64,000 nucleotides of DNA, taken from Actinomycetes bacterium (GTDB lineage Bacteria > Actinomycetota > Actinomycetes > Streptosporangiales > Streptosporangiaceae). Positions 27,048 to 44,193 of the stretch are shown here, piece after piece (within the stretch, counting starts at the first letter, position 1; every line of letters starts with the position of its first letter). A program made the position numbers and the translations under genes. A model generated the notes under the pieces. It was not told where the DNA came from. It saw only the letters and a program-made list of their open reading frames with translations, and made no database searches. The stretch is taken from contig JAJYTD010000005.1 in the NCBI GenBank assembly GCA_021793235.1, positions 124,001-188,000 of the forward strand, written 5' to 3'.

Positions 27048-30000
27048 CTAGAGGAGGCGATGTCGACTGACGTGAGGAACGCTGCGGCTCTGGAGGGCCC
27101 CGTTAGCAGGTTCCGTGAGACGTCGGAGTCGGGCGAGAGCGACCTGTGCTGCTCGGTGTTCGGCGGCTTGCTCGGGGTTGCGGATTGTCTTGGCATCTCC
27201 CAGTGGCGCTGGGTCACTGATGTCGTAGCGGTGTCGGTACAGCGCAACGGCGGCCGCTTCGTTCTCCCATCGTGTTCGGGCTCTCGGCTGCGCCGTTGGC
27301 GTGCCAAGTCGCGAGAGCCACGCGGTACCGGCGTCCTGTGCTTCTTGGACGAGTCGCCGGGCGGCAGCCTCGATGAGGGTCTGCCGCGTAACGAGCGCCG
27401 TGTGCATGTCGCCGGTGATGGGCTCGGCAGGCGTCGCGATGAGCCCGGCGACCCGTGGTCTGCGGTTCTTGCCCGGTGCCAGTTGGCTGGTGGCTTGGTC
27501 GAGCATGGTCGCCAGTTGGGCGGCGGGGTCGATCTGCTCGTCGCCGGGCGTCAGGCGGGGCGCGAGCGCGTTCAGCGCGACGGCGGCGAGGTGTCCGGCG
27601 GCTTCGTGTCGGGCGAGCGCTGCTTCGAGGCGTTCGTAGTAGGGGCTGGTGAACACGTCGTCGGCCACATCCTCGGCGAAGGGTGCGATGTCGAGCAGGG
27701 TCGCCCAGCGGTCGATCTGGGTTTCGCGGGCGAGCACGTCGTACTCGTCCATCAGCGTGGACAACGAGGCGTGGCGGTCGACCTCGAGTTTCAGCGTCTC
27801 GGTGGCCGACAGGTCAGCGTCGCTGCGCCCCAGGACTTCGGCCAGGCGGTCGAGAAGCGTCAGCGGCCCCCGCTGGTCGAGATGCGGCTCGACCTCGTGC
27901 GGGTCGGGCACCATCACGTAGGCATGGTTGGAGTGCTTGCCGCGTGTCATCGTCACGTAGAACAACTCTCGCGACGAGGCCTCGGGATCGACAAGTGCGT
28001 GCGCGGTATCGACGCTGGCTCCTTGGGCGCGGTGAACCGTGGAGGCGTAGCCGAGTTCGAGTTCCTCGCGCACGTACTTCGCAGGCAAGACGAGAGCCTT
28101 GCCGTGAGGCTGGTCGCCGCGCCCCAGCCGCCGCACGGCGAGCGAGCCATCGTCGTAGCGGTGAGTGACTTGCCAACGGTCGCCGTTCTTAACCCACGTT
28201 CTGCCGATCGACAGGCGACGCTCGTTGAGCCGGGTAACGACGAGATCGCCGACGCCTGCGGTAGTGCCGTCGTGCAGACGCAGGCCATCGGCCTCAACCT
28301 GTCCGGATTCAATCAGGTCAGTGCGGGCTCGTTCGTTGAGTTGGGCGACCATCTCGCCGGTGCCCGCGATCATCAGCGTGCGCAGGCCTTCGTCGCGGTC
28401 GGTGCGCCATGCCTCGTAGATCGCATTGAGCATCGTCTCGGCGTCACCGTCGAGCAGTCTGCCCCGCTCGTCGTATTCGTCGAGCGCATCAGTGCTTCCG
28501 TGCCGCAGGCCCAAGCTGGCAGTCTTCTCCCACTCGTTGGCGAAGCGTCGGACATCGGTGAGTTCGGGAACCTGATCGCGGTGGCGCACGAGCATCCCGA
28601 ACGCCCCGCCCGTCTCGACGGCACTCAGCTGCGCCCAATCCCCGATGAGCACGACCTTGGCTCCGACCTCGGCAGCGTGCTCGGCGATGCGATCGAGCGC
28701 GAGCGTTCCTGCGAGGGAGGACTCGTCCACGAGCACGAGCTGCCCGGCTTCGAGGTTCCAGCGCCCTTTGGCGTGTTCGTAGAGGAACTTCGCTGTGTTC
28801 TCCGCCCGCACGCCGAGCGAGTCGCCGAGCACTTCGGCGGCAGCTGCTGACGGCGCGAGGCCGATCACCGAGTCGCGGCCATGCGCGGCTGTCCACGCCC
28901 GGTGCAGGGCACGTAGAGCGGTGGTCTTGCCGGAACCGGCGGGGCCGACGAGTAGATCGAGGGTCAGTCCGGAGCGGGCGATGCAGGTGATTGCGACGGC
29001 CTGGTCGGGGTCGAGCCGTACGCCCCTGATCTTGCGGGAGGTGTGGCGCGCGACGAGTCGCGCTGTCAGTGCTGGCCCGCTGGTGTGCTGGCTGTGCGCG
29101 AGGAGCCGCTGCTCGGCGTCAAGGATGTCTTGGCTGGAGTATGCGATCTGATCGACCGGCTGGAACCTGTTGCCCTCGCCCTCGACGTAGTGGGCTGGCA
29201 CGGCCCGGCCGTAGTCCGGGGTGAGCCGGAGCGATTCGGCTTCGGCGAGCGCGACGATCTGATCAAGCACCCGGATCCGGTCGTCGGTGGTTGCGAACCG
29301 GACGCCCATAATTTGCCGCATCGTCTCGGCGTGCAGGTTCCATCGCCCCCAGGTTGCACGCCGATTCGCTACCTCCATCAGCACAACGGATGCGAGATCC
29401 TCGATCTGCTCCAGACCAAGATCGTCCGCGCGCAGTCGGGCTTCGGTCGCACCCCGGTCGAGCAGGTGTTGCGCCCAGGTGGGTGCGTCATGGCCGAGCA
29501 CGACCTCGGCACGCTCCCGCCAGTCGGCGGTGAGGTCGGCCAGCGAGTGCAGTTCCTTCTCGGGCCTCGTCTCCAAGGTCGCCTGCTGGCGGAGCTTCGC
29601 AATCGTCGCCGCCGAAGGTTGCCGCCCGTGCTCGGAGACGTACTGCTCGATCAGCCGGTTCTTGACCTGCTCGATACCCTCTGCACCGTCGCTGCCGCCG
29701 GGCGTGCGACGCGAGAACTCCGCGATCAACGCGGCCGGAACGCCCTCAATCTCCCACCCCGTGTTGCGGTCTTTGCCCCGGTCGACGGGCACCCACGTCA
29801 CGCCGAGCAGCCGCGCGGTGTGGTCGGTGACAAAGGCGTTATAGGACTCCGAGAGAGCGACAGCCGCCTTGTGCAGGCGGCGCGAATCGAGGGTCCGCCA
29901 GCGTCCGTCGTCGCCCTGCACCTTGTTAGACACGACTACATGGGTATGTAGTTGCGGGTCGGCGGCTCTGCTGTCGTAGTGGTCGAAAGCGGTGGCGATC

Positions 30001-30617
30001 ACACCCATGATCGGCATCTGCGCGATACCACCCGCACCGACACGGGTTGCGGCGACGCGATCTTCCAGCAACGCGATCGTGTCGCGCATCGCGGCGTGAT
30101 GCGCCTGCGCAATGAGCGCTTGTGTGCCCGCGTCGGCCACGCCCCAGATCGCACTGACCGACTTCGGTGGTGAGAACGTCAGGTCGAAACCTGCAACCGC
30201 GGTGCGCGGCTTCTTCGCAACCTCTTCCTCACGGATGCGCTGCACCGCCTCTACTCGTGCCTCGCCCCGCAAGTCGGGGTCGAGTCGTGCAACGCGGGTC
30301 GCAATCCGCTCGCGTGGGGGTTGCAACGAGGGGAACCTCTTGCCGAGCTTCTCCCCGGTGACCGGGTGGATGCCGTCACCGAGCAATCGGGCCAGGTGTT
30401 CCTCGGTCACTGTGTCGCCCTCGGCCAACGCTGGCGTGCGTCCGTCGTCGAGGCTCATCAGGCCGGTGCCGACCCACGTTCCGGGCGGGTTCCCGGTCTC
30501 GGTGTAGTACCGGGTCAGCGGGCTGCTCATCTCGCGGTCGCCGTCACCGACAACGACTGATTTCAGCAGGTATTCGTAGCCCTTGCCTGACGACATGACT
30601 CGGATGGTCATCACCAT
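27048..30617 (-). CDS. MobF-family conjugative relaxase-helicase (TraA-like)
   Basis: 1189 residues. It would nick oriT, stay bound to the 5' end and unwind the transferred strand. The N-terminus contains the catalytic tyrosines (GKGYEYLLKS, Tyr14/Tyr16), and the metal-binding histidine cluster is at ATAFDHYDSRAADPQLHTH (about 210-220). The helicase half has Walker A LLVGPAGSGKTTALRAL (about 557), DEAD-type LVLVDESSLAG (about 627) and the RecD-like motif ELGYASTVHRAQGASVDTAH. GGGGAGG precedes the ATG. No coupling protein or type IV secretion genes are adjacent, so the element would need help to transfer. The oriT is probably in the gap just upstream. Confidence 0.92.
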   Translation of the reverse strand: MVMTIRVMSSGKGYEYLLKSVVVGDGDREMSSPLTRYYTETGNPPGTWVGTGLMSLDDGRTPALAEGDTVTEEHLARLLGDGIHPVTGEKLGKRFPSLQPPRERIATRVARLDPDLRGEARVEAVQRIREEEVAKKPRTAVAGFDLTFSPPKSVSAIWGVADAGTQALIAQAHHAAMRDTIALLEDRVAATRVGAGGIAQMPIMGVIATAFDHYDSRAADPQLHTHVVVSNKVQGDDGRWRTLDSRRLHKAAVALSESYNAFVTDHTARLLGVTWVPVDRGKDRNTGWEIEGVPAALIAEFSRRTPGGSDGAEGIEQVKNRLIEQYVSEHGRQPSAATIAKLRQQATLETRPEKELHSLADLTADWRERAEVVLGHDAPTWAQHLLDRGATEARLRADDLGLEQIEDLASVVLMEVANRRATWGRWNLHAETMRQIMGVRFATTDDRIRVLDQIVALAEAESLRLTPDYGRAVPAHYVEGEGNRFQPVDQIAYSSQDILDAEQRLLAHSQHTSGPALTARLVARHTSRKIRGVRLDPDQAVAITCIARSGLTLDLLVGPAGSGKTTALRALHRAWTAAHGRDSVIGLAPSAAAAEVLGDSLGVRAENTAKFLYEHAKGRWNLEAGQLVLVDESSLAGTLALDRIAEHAAEVGAKVVLIGDWAQLSAVETGGAFGMLVRHRDQVPELTDVRRFANEWEKTASLGLRHGSTDALDEYDERGRLLDGDAETMLNAIYEAWRTDRDEGLRTLMIAGTGEMVAQLNERARTDLIESGQVEADGLRLHDGTTAGVGDLVVTRLNERRLSIGRTWVKNGDRWQVTHRYDDGSLAVRRLGRGDQPHGKALVLPAKYVREELELGYASTVHRAQGASVDTAHALVDPEASSRELFYVTMTRGKHSNHAYVMVPDPHEVEPHLDQRGPLTLLDRLAEVLGRSDADLSATETLKLEVDRHASLSTLMDEYDVLARETQIDRWATLLDIAPFAEDVADDVFTSPYYERLEAALARHEAAGHLAAVALNALAPRLTPGDEQIDPAAQLATMLDQATSQLAPGKNRRPRVAGLIATPAEPITGDMHTALVTRQTLIEAAARRLVQEAQDAGTAWLSRLGTPTAQPRARTRWENEAAAVALYRHRYDISDPAPLGDAKTIRNPEQAAEHRAAQVALARLRRLTEPANGALQSRSVPHVSRHRLL

Positions 30618-30827: not shown

Positions 30828-32501
30828 ATGGCTCATCTTGATGTCGCCTCGGTGGCGTACACGCTGGCGGATGGTCGCCCGCTGCTACGCGACGTCTCGC
30901 TCAGCCTGGGGGCGGGTGAGCGGGTCGCCGTGATCGGCGCGAACGGCGCTGGAAAGAGCACACTGCTTCGGATCGTCACGGGCGAACTCTCACCGGACTC
31001 CGGCGCGGTGACTCGTGGCGGCAGTTTGGGCGTGATGCGTCAGTTCGTCACGGGCGCGACGGTCAGCGAGTTGCTGCTGTCGGTCGCGCAGCCTGTGATC
31101 CGCGATGCCGCCGCACATCTCGCTCGCTCTGAGGTCGTGATGAAAGAGCAGGGCACTACCCAGTCGCAGATGGCGTACGCGGCGGCTGTCGCCGCATGGG
31201 GCGAGGTGGGCGGCTATGACACCGAGGTGTTGTGGGATGTCTGCACGGTCGCCGCACTCGGAGTGCCGTTCGAGCGGTGTCGCGACCGGTCGTTGTCGAC
31301 GTTATCGGGTGGTGAGCAGAAGCGGCTTGCGCTGGAGGCGCTGCTGCGCGGCCCGGATGATCTGGTGCTGTTGGATGAGCCGGACAACTCGCTGGACGTG
31401 CCGGGCAAACGCTGGTTGGAAGAGCAGTTGCGCGCGACGGACAAGGGCGTGCTGTATGTGAGTCACGACCGTGAGCTGCTGGCACGGACCGCGACCTCGA
31501 TCGTGACACTGGAGCTCGGTGCGGCGGGCAACACCGCGTGGACGCATCCGGGCGGATTCGACACCTACCACCGCGCGCGGGAGCAGCGGTTCGAGCGGTT
31601 GGACGAGCTGCGCCGCCGCTGGGACGAAGAGCACGCGAAGCTGCGCTCGCTCATGCTCATGTACAAGCAGAAGGCCGCTTACAACTCTGACATGGCCTCC
31701 CGGTATCGGGCAGCGCAGACCCGGCTGACGCGGTTCGAGGAGGCCGGGCCTCCAGAGGAGCAGCCTCGCGAGCAGCGCCTTCAGATGCGGTTGCGCGGGG
31801 GGCGCACCGGGAAGCGGGTGTTGACCTGCGAGGCGCTGGAGCTGACGGGTCTGATGCGTGCGTTCGATTTCGAGGCGTACTTCGGTGATCGGGTCGCGGT
31901 GCTCGGCTCGAACGGGTCGGGCAAGTCGCACTTCTTGCGCCTGCTCGCGGCCGGGGGCACCGACCCTGCCCCGGGGCAGGAGCCCGTGACCGACGCGAGG
32001 ATCGAACCCGTGCCGCACCGGGGAGCAGCACGGCTCGGTGCGAGGGTTCGGCCGGGATGGTTCGCTCAGAATCGCAGCCGCCCCGACCTCGCGGGCCGTG
32101 CACTGCTGGACATCCTGCACCGCGGTGATGAGCACCGCACCGGCCTTCCCCGAGAGGACGCCTCGCGGGTGCTTGCCCGCTACGAACTGGCGACGTCCGC
32201 CGAACAGCACTTCGACTCGCTTTCAGGAGGACAGCAGGCGAGGTTCCAGGTGCTGCTGCTGGAACTCGGTGGGGCGACGATGCTGCTGTTGGACGAGCCG
32301 ACCGACAACCTCGACCTCGTCTCCGCCGCAGCCCTCCAGCACGCGCTCGGGGCGTTCGAGGGCACGGCGCTCGCCGTGACGCACGATCGTTGGTTCGCAC
32401 GTGACTTCGATCGTTTCCTCATCTTCGGAGCCGACGGGGACGTCTACGAGAGCAGCGAGCCCGTGTGGGACGAAGCCCGCGTCACCAGGGAGAGGAAGTA
32501 G
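30828..32501 (+). CDS. ABC-F family ATPase, probable ribosomal-protection antibiotic resistance protein
   Basis: 557 residues with two ABC domains and no membrane helices. Domain 1 has Walker A GANGAGKST (37-45), signature LSGGEQKR (about 160) and Walker B VLLDEPDNSLD. Domain 2 has LGSNGSGKS (about 359-367), LSGGQQAR and LLLDEPTDNLDLV. The interdomain linker (about 245-320) is long, charged and helical, as in ABC-F proteins that enter the ribosomal E site to dislodge drugs. Operon partners (TetR regulator, MFS pump) and the mobile context favour resistance over a housekeeping role; the drug class is not predictable. A weak GGAG is 2 nt before the ATG, so translation may be leaderless. Confidence 0.88.
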   Translation: MAHLDVASVAYTLADGRPLLRDVSLSLGAGERVAVIGANGAGKSTLLRIVTGELSPDSGAVTRGGSLGVMRQFVTGATVSELLLSVAQPVIRDAAAHLARSEVVMKEQGTTQSQMAYAAAVAAWGEVGGYDTEVLWDVCTVAALGVPFERCRDRSLSTLSGGEQKRLALEALLRGPDDLVLLDEPDNSLDVPGKRWLEEQLRATDKGVLYVSHDRELLARTATSIVTLELGAAGNTAWTHPGGFDTYHRAREQRFERLDELRRRWDEEHAKLRSLMLMYKQKAAYNSDMASRYRAAQTRLTRFEEAGPPEEQPREQRLQMRLRGGRTGKRVLTCEALELTGLMRAFDFEAYFGDRVAVLGSNGSGKSHFLRLLAAGGTDPAPGQEPVTDARIEPVPHRGAARLGARVRPGWFAQNRSRPDLAGRALLDILHRGDEHRTGLPREDASRVLARYELATSAEQHFDSLSGGQQARFQVLLLELGGATMLLLDEPTDNLDLVSAAALQHALGAFEGTALAVTHDRWFARDFDRFLIFGADGDVYESSEPVWDEARVTRERK

Positions 32502-32506
32502 GAGTC

Positions 32507-33112
32507 ATGCCAGCACGGATCGATCCGGAGGAACGGCGTCAGCAGGTGATCGAGGCGGCGTTCCGCCTCGTGGTGGCCGAGGGCATCGAGGGTGTGTCGC
32601 TGCGGAAGGTGGCCGATGAGTCCGGTCTGAACATCGGCTCGGTGCGGCACTACTTCGACGGACATCACGATCTGCTCACCGCCGCGGCGGAGGAGGCGGG
32701 CGCCCGGATGGGTCGCCGTCTCGCTGCCCATGCGGCCGAAGGACTGCGCGGGCTCACCGGTGAGGCGGCACTCGACGCCCTGCAAGCCCTGGTCGAGGCG
32801 GTCATGCCGGTCGATGAGCCGCGTCGTGACGAGGCGATCGTGGTGGTCGAACTGATCATGGCGTCCCGGACCATGCCGGTGTTCCGCGCAATGTCCGCGC
32901 GCATGGCCGCCGACCTCGCTGCTGTCTTACGCGAAGCGCTCGACTTCCTCGACGTGCCTGACGTTGACCTCGCTGCGGCGCAGCTCGCCGCCGTGATCGG
33001 CGGGCTGACGCTGGACACCGTGACGCCGCACGGCGATCTGAGCGTCGAACGCATGCGAGCCGTCCTACGGGCGCATCTGCGGATGCTGCTCGCGAAAGCG
33101 TGTCCTGGGTGA
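32507..33112 (+). CDS. TetR-family repressor of the ABC-F/MFS operon
   Basis: 201 residues from ATG 32507. The N-terminal HTH is IEGVSLRKVADESGLNIGSVRHYFDGHHDLL, typical of AcrR/TetR. The C-terminal helical ligand-binding domain runs from about 55 to 195. It begins 5 bp after the ABC-F stop and its stop overlaps the MFS start (TGATG), so all three genes are one unit. The palindrome at 30802 is the likely operator. Probably de-repressed by the same drug the operon exports or protects against (inference). Confidence 0.88.
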   Translation: MPARIDPEERRQQVIEAAFRLVVAEGIEGVSLRKVADESGLNIGSVRHYFDGHHDLLTAAAEEAGARMGRRLAAHAAEGLRGLTGEAALDALQALVEAVMPVDEPRRDEAIVVVELIMASRTMPVFRAMSARMAADLAAVLREALDFLDVPDVDLAAAQLAAVIGGLTLDTVTPHGDLSVERMRAVLRAHLRMLLAKACPG

Positions 33113-34299
33113 TGCGTATGCCTGCGTGGTTGTTCACACTGCTGGCCGCTGCGTTCGTGCTCTACACCGACGACTACGTGATCGCCGGGATCCTGCCTGA
33201 ACTCGCGGCCGATCTGGGGGTCGCCGAGGGACAGGCCGGACAACTGGTCACCGTGTTCTCCCTGAGCGTCGCCATTGCTGCACCGGTCGCGGCAGTCGTT
33301 CTCGCGGCGGTGCCACGGCGGAGACTGTTCACGACCGCGTTGCTTGCCTTCATCGCCGCGAACGTCGCCGCCGCGGCCACTGATTCGTTTGCGGTGTTGA
33401 CGGTGCTGCGCGTTGCCGCTGCGTTGGCGGCAGCGGCGATGACTCCGGCACTGTTCGCGTTCACCGCCCGCCACGCACCAACGCAGAAGGTCGGCAGGTA
33501 CCTCGCCATCGTCTCTCTCGGCGTCACGGGATCAATCGCAGCCGGAGTGCCGCTTGGCACCTGGATCGGCGGTGTCCTCGGCTGGCGAGCGACCTTCGCG
33601 ACGATGGCCATCGCAGGGGCTCTCGTCCTCGTCCTCGTGCTCAGCACGCTGCCCCGCTCCGAGGGAACCGACGACACTCCACGGCTGGCCGAGCAGTTCC
33701 GCATCCTGCGGCGAGCTCCGATCTCACTCGGATTGATGGCGAATTGCCTGCTCATGACCGGCTCGATGATGATGCTCACCTACCTCGCCCCCTACCTGGC
33801 CGAGACCACTACAGCAGGCATCGAGGAACGCGCACTCGCCTTCAGCCTGTCCGGGATCGCCGGCATCGTGGGCATCTGGCTCGGTGGGATCGCTACCGAC
33901 CGCCTCGGTGCGGATCGAACCCTGCTGATCGGTATCGGCACGATCGTTGCCACGATGATCGTCCTCTGGGTGCTCTGGACAGCCAGACCCGCTCCACTGC
34001 CGCTCGTGCTGGTCGTCGCGACGCTGTGGGGCGGTATGGCGTTCTGGAACTCCCCGGCAATCCAAGCCCGCCTGCATCACCTCGCCGGTCCGGTCTCCGG
34101 GCAAGCGCTGGCGCTGAACACTTCCGGCACCTACCTCGGAGTGTCCATAGGAGCTGCGACAGGAGGCAGCATCCTCTCCGTCGCAGGGGTGGGCGCGCTT
34201 CCCCTTACGGCAGCAGGCTTCGCCGTTTCGGCGCTTCTATTGTTGGCATTTGTTTCCCGAAGCAAGCTCGTCCCTGTACCGGCAGCCGATGATGATTAG
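33112..34299 (+). CDS. MFS drug-efflux transporter (DHA1 type)
   Basis: 395 residues with 12 predicted membrane helices. Motif A-like AVPRRRLFTTALL follows helix 2, and motif C-like GVPLGTWIGGVLGWRATF is in helix 5, both typical of proton-driven drug antiporters. The start at 33112 overlaps the TetR stop. Cytoplasmic loop 6-7 is SEGTDDTPRLAEQFRILRR. Substrate unknown; being co-operonic with ABC-F suggests a shared drug. Confidence 0.9.
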   Translation: MRMPAWLFTLLAAAFVLYTDDYVIAGILPELAADLGVAEGQAGQLVTVFSLSVAIAAPVAAVVLAAVPRRRLFTTALLAFIAANVAAAATDSFAVLTVLRVAAALAAAAMTPALFAFTARHAPTQKVGRYLAIVSLGVTGSIAAGVPLGTWIGGVLGWRATFATMAIAGALVLVLVLSTLPRSEGTDDTPRLAEQFRILRRAPISLGLMANCLLMTGSMMMLTYLAPYLAETTTAGIEERALAFSLSGIAGIVGIWLGGIATDRLGADRTLLIGIGTIVATMIVLWVLWTARPAPLPLVLVVATLWGGMAFWNSPAIQARLHHLAGPVSGQALALNTSGTYLGVSIGAATGGSILSVAGVGALPLTAAGFAVSALLLLAFVSRSKLVPVPAADDD

Positions 34300-34307
34300 G
34301 CCATGCC

Positions 34308-35204
34308 GTGCAGTTCTTTCGCCCGCTTACGGCGCGCACTCAGGCGGTGCACCGTCCTGTGGGGCCGGTGGCCTATGACTGTGTGAAGGTCATCGTCGTC
34401 CGCGACGGTTCCGCATTTGTGTTCAGTGAATTCGGTCGGCAGCCGGTCAAGTCCGGTGATGTGATCTTGCTGGGCGCAAACGTGCTGGCAGGATCGGAGC
34501 CTGAGGGACACATCACCGTGACCACGATCTATCTCGACACTGACTATGTGCTCGACCAGGTGCGCTGGCAATACGCTGCATTCCTGCACGACCGGCTTGA
34601 CGCGCGAGGGCTCGCAGAGACGATCTATACCGAACCCTCGCAGTTGCTCCGACTCGGCGAGGATCGGGCCGGGATGATGATGCCGTGGCTGGATGAGTTG
34701 GTGGCACTTAGCGTCGATGGCGACTTCGTGAGCCACTACTACCGGATGCAGGCGCTGTGGTTCCAAATCGCATACGTCATCGCCCCGTTTGTCAAAGTCT
34801 CGCCTGTGCGCATTTCACCCTCGCAGCGTGCGCATATCCGGCCCACGTTGCCTAGGGATCGTCGCTTTACACCGTTGCGCATTGAAGTTCGGAGGGCCGC
34901 TGCCTTGCTGCGGGAGTACCCTGCAAGGCGGTGGACGCTGGAAGACCTTGCCACAGAGGTTCACCTGTCGCCGTCGCGGCTGTCCAGCGTGTTCGTGGAG
35001 GCGTACGGCAAAACCCCGTTGGCGTTCCTGACGATGATCCGCGCCGAACATCTCGCAACGCTGTTGCGAGAGACTGATCTGACCGTCACCGCCGCGATGC
35101 AGCAAGTGGGCTGGCGCTCGCGCTCCCACGCCACCCGCTTGTTCCGTCAGTACGTCGGTGTCAGCCCCGGCCGCTACCGCACGATGGGCATGCAGAGCGT
35201 CTGA
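34308..35204 (+). CDS. AraC-family transcriptional regulator, right copy
   Basis: 298 residues from GTG 34308, 8 bp after the MFS stop, so probably co-transcribed with the resistance operon. Same architecture as the 24347 copy: N-terminal sensor domain and C-terminal paired HTH (RWTLEDLATEVHLSPSRLSSVF; SRSHATRLFRQYVGVSPGRYR). About 84% protein identity to that copy, in opposite orientation, and the two enclose the cargo. The gene ends 3 bp before the truncated helicase frame begins. Confidence 0.87.
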   Translation: MQFFRPLTARTQAVHRPVGPVAYDCVKVIVVRDGSAFVFSEFGRQPVKSGDVILLGANVLAGSEPEGHITVTTIYLDTDYVLDQVRWQYAAFLHDRLDARGLAETIYTEPSQLLRLGEDRAGMMMPWLDELVALSVDGDFVSHYYRMQALWFQIAYVIAPFVKVSPVRISPSQRAHIRPTLPRDRRFTPLRIEVRRAAALLREYPARRWTLEDLATEVHLSPSRLSSVFVEAYGKTPLAFLTMIRAEHLATLLRETDLTVTAAMQQVGWRSRSHATRLFRQYVGVSPGRYRTMGMQSV

Positions 35205-40989: not shown

Positions 40990-41003
40990 CCGAAGCAGTC
41001 TTG

Positions 41004-41041
41004 TACGGGGCTGGACCTTCCCACCACGGTTCAGCCCCGTA
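41004..41041 (+). terminator. Long terminator-like hairpin after the DUF4913-type gene
   Basis: TACGGGGCTG (41004-41013) pairs with CAGCCCCGTA (41032-41041), and GACC/GGTT continue the stem with one G-U pair, giving about 14 bp with a 10-nt loop. It starts 14 bp after the stop codon. No T-tract follows. It is also the first of a run of hairpins up to 41231. Confidence 0.7.
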
Positions 41042-41065
41042 TTCGTGCCCTACAGGGTCGCCGGT

Positions 41066-41231
41066 AGCTCGGCTTACGAGCTTCCCTTCCCAGCCCGTAG
41101 GCCGAGCCGGTAGAATCGCCGTAGGCGACATCACATCAGCTAGGCCGCCACCCTCCACGGAGGCGGCATGACAAGCCGGGCATCCCGCCCAGTGAGTCCT
41201 CCCCATCAAGGGTCGCCCCTTGGGAGGACTC
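41066..41231 (+). promoter_or_regulatory. Highly structured leader (candidate structured RNA) that sequesters the next gene's RBS
   Basis: Four further stems follow the terminator. GCTCGGCTTACG (41067-41078) pairs over 12 bp with 41096-41107, and competes with AGCTCG/CGAGCT (41066-41071/41077-41082). TCGCC-GTA-GGCGA is at 41116-41128. GCCGCC/GGCGGC is at 41144-41149/41162-41167. GAGTCCTCCC (41194-41203) pairs perfectly with GGGAGGACTC (41222-41231). The last stem contains GGGAGG, the SD for the ATG at 41236, so translation is predicted to be off unless the stem opens. I do not recognise a known riboswitch. Confidence 0.5.
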
Positions 41232-41235
41232 GGCC

Positions 41236-41676
41236 ATGCTCCGACTCATCTGGAACGCCAGCATCCGCATCCGCACGTTCATGCGCGTCTGGATGCCCAC
41301 CAACATCCTGCTCGACGCCCTACGCACCAGACGCGGCCTGCACTGGGGCGTCCTGGCGATGCTGCTGGCCGTCGTCTACTTCGCCATCGCCTACTGGTGC
41401 ACCACCCTCATCGACGCAGGCGCACCCGGCTGGTTGCACCTGATCGTGCTGCTGTGCATCATCAACGCCTTCAAGTTCCTCATCCACGGCCCCATCAGCC
41501 TCGTCCGGCTGATCCGGGCTCGCCGTAGCGAGCGCCGCCAAGCTCGCGTCGAGGCCGGGGAACGCCTCGCCAAGCCCTGGCGGACTCCGCGCGTACCTGC
41601 GGAATATGAGGCACTACCGCAGCACGAGCACGGGCCGACGCATCTCAGCCGAACCGCGGCTGCGCACAGCGCCTGA
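41236..41676 (+). CDS. Small membrane protein of the mobile element
   Basis: 146 residues. Two hydrophobic helices (GVLAMLLAVVYFAIAYWCTTL and GWLHLIVLLCIINAFKFLIHG) lie between a basic N-terminus and a charged cytoplasmic tail (RRSERRQARVEAGERL). The SD GGGAGG is buried in a perfect 10-bp hairpin. Homologues are familiar from actinobacterial integrative elements as uncharacterised membrane proteins; a role in transfer or exclusion is conceivable but unproven. Confidence 0.75.
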   Translation: MLRLIWNASIRIRTFMRVWMPTNILLDALRTRRGLHWGVLAMLLAVVYFAIAYWCTTLIDAGAPGWLHLIVLLCIINAFKFLIHGPISLVRLIRARRSERRQARVEAGERLAKPWRTPRVPAEYEALPQHEHGPTHLSRTAAAHSA

Positions 41677-41869
41677 CCACAAGCGTCTGGTCGCGCTCGT
41701 TCTGCACCTCGCCGACGAACTCCACGCCCACGAACTCGACCAGCACCAGCGCCACATCGACACTCAACAAAACGACCAAGACTCGACACCCGACGCACCG
41801 GAGGCGGGTGAGCAAGGAGCGGAAGCCCATGACCCCACACGTCGCCCCGGCCCCCGTACTGGCGACTGA
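41606..41869 (+). CDS. Possible small helical protein overlapping its neighbours
   Basis: 87 residues, overlapping the 3' end of the membrane-protein gene by 71 bp and the start of the recombinase gene by 41 bp, each in a different frame. The middle (HKRLVALVLHLADELHAHELD) looks like a genuine amphipathic helix. The rest is basic or acidic low-complexity. No good SD. It could be a real small ORF linking the two genes, or only an open frame. Confidence 0.35.
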   Translation: MRHYRSTSTGRRISAEPRLRTAPDHKRLVALVLHLADELHAHELDQHQRHIDTQQNDQDSTPDAPEAGEQGAEAHDPTRRPGPRTGD

Positions 41870-43589
41870 GACGCTGCCGGTCCTGACCGCGGTCACCTAT
41901 CAGCGGGTCTCCACCAAAGAGCAAGCGTCCAAGGGCGGACGTGACGAGGGGTTCTCCATCCCCGCCCAGCGTGAGGCCAACGCACGTAAAGCCGAATCCC
42001 TCGGGGCGCGGATCGTCGCGGAGTTCGTCGACGCCGGCGAGTCCGCACGTTCGGCCGACCGGCCGGACTTGCAGAGGATGCTGGACTATATCGCGACCCA
42101 TCAGGTCACCTACTGCATCGTGCACAAGGTCGACCGGTTGGCCCGCAACCGAGTCGATGACGTGGAAATCCACCGCCGCCTCGTCGAAGCCGGGGTCACG
42201 CTGGTCTCGGCGACGGAGAACATCGACGAGACCCCCTCGGGGATGCTGCTGCACGGCATCATGTCCTCCATCGCCGAGTTCTACTCCAAGAACCTCGCCA
42301 CCGAAGTCACCAAGGGCCTGACGCAGAAGTTCGAGACCGGCGGCACCCCGATGCGCGCTCCCATCGGCTACCTCAACGTCCGCAAACGCGACGAGCAGGG
42401 CCGCGAGTACCGCACGGTGGAGATCGACCCCGAACGCGCACCCCTCGTACGGTGGGTGTTCGAGCAGTACGCCACCGGAGACCGCACCGTCGTCGACCTG
42501 CTCACCGAAGTCACCGCCCGCGGGCTGACCACCGTGCCGACGCCGAAGCGACCCTCCGGACCGGTGGCACGGTCGGGGTTCTTCAAACTGCTGCGCAACC
42601 CCTACTACATCGGCATCGTCCGCTACAAAGGCGCCGAGCAGCCCGGCACCCACGAGCCACTGATCGACATTGACACCTGGCAGCACGTCCAACGACTCCT
42701 CGACTCGCGCAAGATCGCCTCCGAACGACGCCGCTCCCACGACCACTACCTCAAAGGCACCCTGTACTGCGGATCGTGCGGATCACGGATGCAACTGGAC
42801 TACCCAGCCAACAAGCAAGGCGTCCGCTACGGCTACTATGTCTGTTCCGGCCGGGCCTCCAAGCGTAAGAACTGCACCCGGCGGGCCGTGCCGGTCGGCG
42901 TCGCCGAGCAACTCGTCGCCGACTGCTACAGAGACATCGCGATCACCGAGGCCGAGTACGCCACCCTCGCCACGCAGGTCGAGGCGGCGTTCGACGAACG
43001 CCTGGCCTCCCGCTCCCAGGAACTGGCCGAGTTGACTGAGAACCGCAAGCGGCTCCAGATCGAGAGCGACAAGCTCCTCGCCGCGCACTTCGCCGACGCC
43101 ATCGACCTGGAGACCTTGAAGCGCCACCAAGACCGCATCCGCACCGGGCTCGCCGACATCGACCGCCGCCTCGCCACCGAACACGATCACCACACCGGAG
43201 CACGCAAACAACTGAGCACCGCACTCAGCCTGCTGGTCGACTGCGCGACCCTCTACGCCCGCACCAACGCCCACGGCAAGCGGCTCGCCAACCAGGCACT
43301 CACCAACGGCATCGACATCAGCGAAGACGAAAGGGCGACGATCCGACTCGCCGAGCCCTTCGCCGCCCTCACACCAACACCGGATTCGACTGATGTCAGG
43401 TGTTCTAGTACGTCTTCAATTGTGGAGCTATGGGGATTCGAACCCCAGACCTCTTCCATGCCATGGAAGCGCGCTACCAACTGCGCCATAGCCCCGAGCT
43501 ACAGGGCAACTCTACCGGATCTGAGGGGCTGCTCATGCCACGAGGCACTGGCCGCTCACCTGCCCGTACCAACCCCGAAGGCGCAATAA
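41829..43589 (+). CDS. Large serine recombinase (integrase), C-terminus runs into host tRNA
   Basis: 586 codons from ATG 41829 (AGGAG upstream). Resolvase catalytic domain: TYQRVSTKEQASKGG (Ser nucleophile), EGFSIPAQREAN and HKVDRLARN. Recombinase domain: APIGYLNVRKRD and RSGFFKLLRNPYYIG. Zinc ribbon: LYCGSCGSRM with CSGRASKRKNC. A coiled coil follows. Integrates and excises the element. The last 55 codons, from about 43423, are antisense to tRNA-Ala and beyond, so the native C-terminus was probably replaced on integration. The visible tail is likely non-functional sequence. Confidence 0.92.
   Translation: MTPHVAPAPVLATETLPVLTAVTYQRVSTKEQASKGGRDEGFSIPAQREANARKAESLGARIVAEFVDAGESARSADRPDLQRMLDYIATHQVTYCIVHKVDRLARNRVDDVEIHRRLVEAGVTLVSATENIDETPSGMLLHGIMSSIAEFYSKNLATEVTKGLTQKFETGGTPMRAPIGYLNVRKRDEQGREYRTVEIDPERAPLVRWVFEQYATGDRTVVDLLTEVTARGLTTVPTPKRPSGPVARSGFFKLLRNPYYIGIVRYKGAEQPGTHEPLIDIDTWQHVQRLLDSRKIASERRRSHDHYLKGTLYCGSCGSRMQLDYPANKQGVRYGYYVCSGRASKRKNCTRRAVPVGVAEQLVADCYRDIAITEAEYATLATQVEAAFDERLASRSQELAELTENRKRLQIESDKLLAAHFADAIDLETLKRHQDRIRTGLADIDRRLATEHDHHTGARKQLSTALSLLVDCATLYARTNAHGKRLANQALTNGIDISEDERATIRLAEPFAALTPTPDSTDVRCSSTSSIVELWGFEPQTSSMPWKRATNCAIAPSYRATLPDLRGCSCHEALAAHLPVPTPKAQ
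43423..43495 (-). tRNA. tRNA-Ala (GGC), copy 1, at the element junction
   Basis: 73-nt cloverleaf on the minus strand. Acceptor GGGGCTA pairs with TAGCTCC, including the G3-U70 wobble that identifies tRNA-Ala. The anticodon loop ATGGCAT gives GGC, and the T-arm is GGGGTTCGAATCCCC. CCA is not encoded. Its 3' end faces the mobile element and overlaps the recombinase ORF, so it is the likely attachment gene. Identical to copy 2. Confidence 0.96.
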
Positions 43590-44100: not shown

Positions 44101-44120
44101 GAGCATGCGGGGCCGCCTCG

Positions 44121-44193
44121 TGGAGCTATGGGGATTCGAACCCCAGACCTCTTCCATGCCATGGAAGCGCGCTACCAACTGCGCCATAGCCCC
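44121..44193 (-). tRNA. tRNA-Ala (GGC), copy 2
   Basis: Base-for-base identical to the 43423-43495 gene over all 73 nt, with the GGC anticodon, G3-U70 pair and no encoded CCA. The flanks differ, so this is a second gene 698 bp away rather than an assembly duplicate of the same locus. Confidence 0.96.

Follow-up and report, generated by a model that had tools for sequence, protein, structure and literature searches.

Several translational riboswitches, preQ1 and SAM-II among them, hold the Shine–Dalgarno (SD) sequence in a pseudoknot, and pseudoknots are also a feature of autoregulatory leaders of ribosomal-protein genes, such as those of the alpha operon and S15. In E. coli, the small membrane protein TisB is another case. 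Its mRNA is reported to have a 5'-end pseudoknot and a sequestered ribosome-binding site (RBS), together with a role in ribosome standby (PMC7708055). EGeRS1 of the pLS20-type Bacillus plasmids, which are conjugative, comprises conserved, inverted-repeat-rich regions before establishment genes, and had no known mechanism as of 2021 (PMC8708921). Here we analyse a locus in a 64,000-nucleotide (nt) stretch of actinobacterial DNA (the window: positions 124,001 to 188,000 of contig JAJYTD010000005.1, assembly GCA_021793235.1) in which a structured leader precedes a gene on the + strand (41236–41676). The gene encodes a protein of 146 amino acids (aa) with two membrane helices predicted by hydropathy and basic N- and C-terminal flanks. 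We think it probable that the leader represents a new family of cis-acting translational-control RNAs on actinobacterial conjugative or mobilisable elements; in the window's class of this family a hairpin, P4, hides the SD.

Judged by sequence comparison, the leader is real: a structured RNA whose general kind is known, which occurs widely and was found in none of the databases searched. Relatives of the 146-aa protein were found at 10 loci in genome contigs (Gordonia, Schumannella, Pseudoclavibacter, Knoellia, Microlunatus, Gulosibacter, Brevibacterium and Microbacterium among them), on one contig of a viral collection and in five plasmid records; none was found in phages. The 16-row protein profile matches 21 of the 345 genomes of the class (its own genome counted; two matches are weak, with E >1e-5), 1 of the 17 genomes of one family and 41 of the 199 of another. 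From the homologous genes, many of which lie on mobile elements, we collected 80 distinct upstream regions, 79 of them extracted by a script that omitted protein matches starting beyond profile position 12, and one (L051) by hand. No start codon lies near the expected place in L047 (a near-copy of L055), L051, L109, L134 and L140; L109, L134 and L140 were lost. Seventy of the 80 regions carry a leader of the same plan, assigned by eye to class I (31, with the window), class II (29), class III (4) or class IV (6), the last two being small and their P1 helix tentative. In this plan a strand at the 5' end is followed by hairpin P2, often by hairpin P3, and by P4 at the SD, and the 5'-end strand pairs into the P4 loop to make P1. 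The leaders are about 90–140 nt long, with 98–143 nt between −10 box and start codon. In L170, L161 and L156 the gene behind the leader is truncated or frame-shifted, which points to decay.

In the window all parts of the leader lie on the + strand. At the putative extreme 5' end of the RNA is the P1 strand GGCGAC (41124–41129), which is complementary to GTCGCC (41212–41217) in the P4 loop, a pseudoknot that was overlooked in the original prediction for this locus. P2 (41144–41149/41162–41167, extended by 41151–41152/41159–41160) is followed by an ATGAC junction (41168–41172), one of only a few unpaired stretches with conservation, whose columns are conserved as A-Y-G-A-C while the start codon within it is not, and by P3 (41178–41181/41187–41190), which appears in both fold and alignment, is variable and is missing in some relatives. 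P4 is built from two perfectly complementary arms, GAGTCCTCCC (41194–41203) and GGGAGGACTC (41222–41231), the second of which contains the SD GGGAGG (41222–41227) for the ATG at 41236. The interval 41004–41260 has a folding energy of −126.1 kcal/mol, the mean for shuffled sequence being −96.75 (z −5.83; 0 of 200 shuffles equal it), and the leader taken from its inferred transcript start has a fold z of −3.2 (60 shuffles). The SD has an unpaired probability below 0.001 in the ensemble, that is, nearly all of it is paired.

Across leaders P1 is recognisable by pairs of strands whose letters vary jointly: GGCGAC/GTCGCC, GGCAAC/GTTGCC, GGCAAG/CTTGCC and AGCAAC/GTTGCT, and further GAGGCAG/CTGCCTC, GAGGTAG/CTACCTC, GAAGCAG/CTGCTTC and CGCTGC/GCAGCG. 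In a longest-helix permutation test on 70 leaders, with wider 3' windows for classes III and IV than for I and II, Watson–Crick helices formed with a leader's own partner exceeded those with permuted partners (0 of 5000 permutations, both globally and within classes); with G·U pairs allowed, no global permutation of 5000 reached the observed sum either. Thirty of the 31 class I leaders were aligned (alignment A2, excluding L052) and 28 of the 29 class II leaders (A3, excluding L071). In class I, 98.9% of P1 cells are paired and four of six pairs change on both sides; the main P2 helix has 89.5% of its cells paired and five of seven alignment pairs changed on both sides, and all five measures of the alignment lie beyond every one of 500 shuffles. 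In class II the figures for P1 are 93.9% and three of seven pairs, the covariation score is reached by 0 of 500 shuffles, and three of the five measures lie beyond all of them. Because subgroups differ in register at its 3' arm on the MAFFT alignments, P4 was tested free of alignment. Its arms favour their own partners in each class with Watson–Crick pairs only (0 of 5000 permutations), and in class II with G·U pairs allowed as well (0 of 5000), in a test that found the P1 loop strand by class-specific short motifs picked after inspecting the leaders. The original prediction was to be given up if homologues lacked covarying pairs, or if the stem and the RBS were not conserved together; neither is the case for class I, since the P4 stem, P1 and P2 covary.

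Rfam 15 offers no counterpart: at the gathering score the whole window returns nothing but two tRNAs, both elsewhere, the interval 41000–41300 has no match at E ≤10, and 18 homologous loci have none at E ≤1 apart from one tRNA. Among the literature matches listed, none describes the leader in its title or the beginning of its abstract. With P1, P2 and P4 covarying, the earlier proposal that the mobile element carries a structured leader RNA, unmatched in Rfam and with a conserved SD-hiding stem, is supported. A covariance model of class I (R1) gave 29 matches in the set of 199 genomes, 27 of them at the gene or a broken copy of it and two weak ones (L163 and L164) that look like chance. A model of class II (R2) gave 28 in the same genomes. 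Of these, 24 are strong and without exception lie at the gene; the other four are weak, and one of them overlaps a gene fragment. Together the strong matches cover 35 of the 41 gene-bearing genomes in the set, the remaining six including two with class III and IV leaders. Across 340 genomes of the class, R1 gave five matches, four at the gene and a weak, chance-like fifth (L201), in searches run with strict filters that weak copies elsewhere could escape. Since nearly all matches sit at one gene family, the RNA is, as far as seen, the dedicated leader of that family and not a widely used sensor. Pairing with covariation, a conserved promoter and this near-exclusive tie to one gene family are what the comparison of loci shows.

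How far the RNA extends is set by the promoter. A CTTCC-type −35 box and, after ~17–18 nt, a TAnnnT −10 box are common to most classified leaders, and a promoter-like pair is present in 56 of the 69 loci (110 nt tested per locus); the −10 position was placed by hand in L050, L099, L035 and L068, and L099 is without TAnnnT. In the window the boxes are TTCCCA (41087–41092, + strand) and TAGAAT (41111–41116, + strand), and because of them we place the putative transcript start near 41123, ~110 nt 5' of the start codon. The first hairpins of 41004–41235 would therefore lie outside the RNA. The original prediction had read five stems in this interval as a single leader; the conserved unit starts only after the promoter, and about half of the interval is promoter or terminator DNA. 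The competing stems noted at 41066–41107 fall on the promoter and are not common to relatives, since fold z for the promoter-side stretch, taken as up to 75 nt 5' of the start, averages −0.06 across 68 loci, the window included, against −3.24 for the window alone. Sequence and fold place a 14-base-pair hairpin at 41004–41041 (+ strand), adjoining the 3' end of a DUF4913-type gene whose Pfam match is below the cut-off. This hairpin is probably the transcription terminator of that gene; L043 has a different hairpin at the corresponding place. The DUF4913-type gene, which had been taken as part of the setting, is an incidental neighbour: many homologues have other genes upstream, and in several the upstream gene differs or runs the opposite way.

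How far the SD is masked depends on the class. In class I its unpaired probability is 0.08, whereas shuffling the upstream leader gives 0.30 (p 2.6e-8); in class IV the two values are 0.20 and 0.29. Because the fold program ignores pseudoknots, this test shows P4 without P1. On the mechanism that we propose, the leader's own promoter would start the transcript ~110 nt 5' of the start codon, and the first nucleotides, the 5' strand of P1, would pair into the P4 loop to form a pseudoknot that encloses P2 and, where it occurs, as it often does, P3. With the SD as the 3' arm of P4 in the class of the window, the folded leader would keep translation of the two-helix membrane protein low, and something that opens P4 would release it. 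What opens P4 is probably peculiar to this gene, either a factor acting in trans or a kinetic effect, and not a common metabolite. Covariation across homologues makes the architecture of the leader well supported; translational control and its direction we infer, with translation that is low by default as the most likely state.

A number of results weigh against this interpretation. Ten of the 80 upstream regions carry no recognised element (L057, L072, L073, L074, L076, L077, L083, L087, L110 and L138). Hiding of the SD is not above the control in class II (unpaired probability 0.31 against 0.29) or class III (0.82 against 0.59), and mean fold z is modest outside class I (−0.96 in class II, −0.90 in class III, −1.16 in class IV). 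When G·U pairs are counted, the observed sum for P1 is matched in 14 of 5000 permutations within classes, and that for P4 of class I in 3 of 5000. Two of the five class II measures fall within the range of the shuffles (37 of 500 and 494 of 500), and at two of the four class I P1 pairs, 15-110 and 16-109, the change is mostly one-sided, the partner mostly staying the same. In an energy-based test of the P1 duplex, own partners could not be told apart from shuffled ones (mean z −0.33), and a leader's own 3' part was outdone on average by 41% of those from other leaders; GC-rich windows pair well whatever the partner, and the longest-helix permutation test took the place of this one. Counts of covarying pairs are limited by the relatedness of the leaders. 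On a tree of 69 proteins (L051 left out), the five sites examined require at least three to seven changes, and independent pairs of changes almost never run in opposite directions; at each of these sites no more than one or two independent changes fall on well-supported branches, too few for a sign test. Masking is strong in the window's class alone, and what the classes share is the architecture. The original prediction is confirmed in part. Its SD-sequestering stem is real, with 41194–41203 perfectly paired to 41222–41231 and holding the SD for the ATG at 41236, and it covaries; masking above control does not extend to classes II and III.

On the same tree classes I and II are intermixed, with eight changes for each, of which well-supported branches force only one and two; it looks as if leaders and genes had been exchanged, or as if one class had arisen repeatedly from the other.

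Pseudoknot and masked RBS together would also suit a standby activator of the tisB type, in which the pseudoknot at the 5' end brings the ribosome or S1 to the masked RBS and so promotes translation. Both features are supported in class I, the same combination is reported for the tisB mRNA (PMC7708055), and P1 is conserved even where the SD is unmasked. However, P1 pairs with the RBS hairpin's own loop and does not make up a 5' structure apart from it; an unstructured, conserved stretch for standby was not noticed, without a formal test, and no antisense promoter was found in the 69 loci. We regard standby activation, the main alternative, as unlikely. A small-molecule riboswitch, with P1, P2 and the junction as an aptamer whose ligand locks P4, would account for the conserved AYGAC junction of class I, and an SD-hiding pseudoknot is the plan common to several translational riboswitches. 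A covarying structure that masks the SD is indeed found in class I, the masking part being absent from classes II and III. A conserved unpaired aptamer core is not found among the 30 class I rows: outside the start codon and the arms of P1, P2 and P4, only five columns of A2 are fixed at 85% (A10, A59, G61, C63 and C145), a count that may be low because the P4 part of this alignment is out of register. It is because so few unpaired bases are fixed, and because the RNA serves almost a single gene family, that an aptamer appears less likely, and we rate it as quite improbable. The same two observations speak against the sensing of a metabolite or a tRNA in the original prediction, for which no ligand evidence was found.

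A small hydrophobic protein on mobile elements, a masked RBS and pairing letters that drift are what one would expect of a type I toxin–antitoxin-like module, where a structured toxin mRNA is silenced by an antisense RNA. We consider it very unlikely here: antisense promoter-like pairs occur in 1 of 69 loci, compared with 2 of 69 for a control stretch (sigma70-like consensus only), and the proteins, with intact reading frames of 109–154 aa, exceed known type I toxins in length. The junction itself could be the start of an upstream open reading frame (uORF) whose translation opens P4, making the leader a leader-peptide attenuator. In the window a GGAGG lies 5' of the ATG at 41168; the junction has an ATG in 22 of the 30 class I rows, 6 of them with a stop codon in frame 14–16 nt before the gene, beside the SD. 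Yet 8 of the 30 rows have no ATG there, and by its distance from the gene the junction may be in any of the three frames (6, 6 and 10 rows). Of the 22 frames, 12 run through the stretch read without a stop, and the remaining stops are scattered; a conserved uORF at the junction was not found among the 30 class I rows by alignment columns, which makes attenuation most improbable. Finally, relaxase genes adjoin the gene in several loci, as they might if the conserved element acted as DNA, being a single-stranded-DNA promoter or a transfer origin and not an RNA. This is scarcely credible given that the promoter region has no conserved inverted repeat (the mean fold z of −0.06 over 68 loci given above), that the conserved helices, which reach as far as the SD, lie 3' of the inferred transcript start, and that the relaxase of the window is more than 10 kb away on the opposite strand. 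The uORF, the antisense promoter and the single-stranded-DNA promoter were each tested, and none was supported.

The protein behind the leader has as a rule two hydrophobic helices joined by a short loop with a net charge of 0 to −2 (16 rows, hydropathy). Basic flanks are present in most of the 16 rows, and one row has an extra N-terminal segment. The charges of the helix–loop–helix and the basic flanks suggest that both ends of the protein would be cytoplasmic. NCBIfam and PHROGs gave no family for any of the 16 rows, the window's member included. Pfam gave no family for the 146-aa member and no convincing match for the others: four families match one row each, with a best E of 0.0054, which we judge to be chance. 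There is no sequence match in the PDB, and an AlphaFold2 model based on 10 rows is weak (mean predicted local distance difference test, pLDDT, 62; predicted template-modelling score, pTM, 0.35). In two plasmid records (L053 6003–6377 and L054 5944–6384) the protein is labelled 'sulfate permease', a label without apparent basis that the NCBIfam, PHROG and Pfam searches do not support.

Neighbouring genes were scanned in 31 loci, taking 31 of the 54 open reading frames (ORFs) that a script called upstream of the gene and 31 of the 60 that it called downstream. Nine of the upstream ORFs carry a helicase domain and four a relaxase domain of MobF-type proteins, several of these MobF-type ORFs being cut by the end of the locus, and four are DprA-like; seven of the 31 downstream ORFs are large serine recombinases of the same kind as in the window. 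Vsr, a Dam-type methylase and UmuC-like polymerases are further neighbours in the loci, as is an SSB-like protein in the window, and such genes would suit the early steps after DNA transfer. The window's own MobF-type relaxase-helicase lies at 27048–30614 on the minus strand, more than 10 kb from the leader, and genes of ABC-F, MFS and AraC type (30828–35204) stand between it and the helicase, SSB and DUF4913 genes. On a Glutamicibacter plasmid (L056) an ABC-F gene and an MFS transporter gene come after the gene for the membrane protein; these two gene kinds are paired in the window too. Downstream in the window, the 3' end of the serine recombinase ORF (41808–43589) runs antisense across a tRNA-Ala(GGC) gene (43422–43495); a second, identical tRNA-Ala (74 of 74 positions) is found at 44120–44193, with flanks that are not identical. 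L048 has an overlap of downstream ORF and tRNA like that in the window.

RNA control of the early genes of conjugative elements is little understood. The leader adds a cis-regulatory RNA family supported by covariation and unmatched by Rfam 15, and with it an unannotated family of membrane proteins that in actinobacteria often keeps company with MobF relaxases or large serine recombinases. A more far-reaching idea, which we put forward only tentatively, is that these RNAs, spread on conjugative elements across actinobacteria, are pseudoknotted switches that read a signal of the element's life cycle, such as how much of its membrane protein is present or that it has just entered a new host, and then release translation of a membrane protein that aids establishment or the exclusion of rivals. 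The leader is compact, at ~110 nt, and its pairs are known, which opens the question to direct test.

Compared with the described systems, the leader is related to each in a different way. With the leaders of the alpha operon and S15 it has in common that architecture is more conserved than sequence and that the RNA is bound to one gene family, although the gene here is not that of a ribosomal protein and an RNA-binding partner is only hypothetical. With preQ1 and SAM-II it shares an SD-holding pseudoknot and covarying helices, but not the rest: few of its unpaired bases are fixed, it serves almost one gene family and it has no match in Rfam. The product of tisB, like that of the gene studied here, is a small membrane protein, the present one being larger and from another phylum. 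The 5'-end pseudoknot and sequestered RBS described for tisB mRNA (PMC7708055) have their likeness in the window's class, with the difference that here the pseudoknot is formed with the loop of the RBS hairpin and that no antisense promoter was found in the 69 loci. The EGeRS1 regions, 400–600 bp long and placed before several different operons (PMC8708921), are larger and less exclusive than a leader of ~90–140 nt that belongs to one gene family; what the two have in common is conserved, repeat-rich or structured sequence before genes of conjugative elements.
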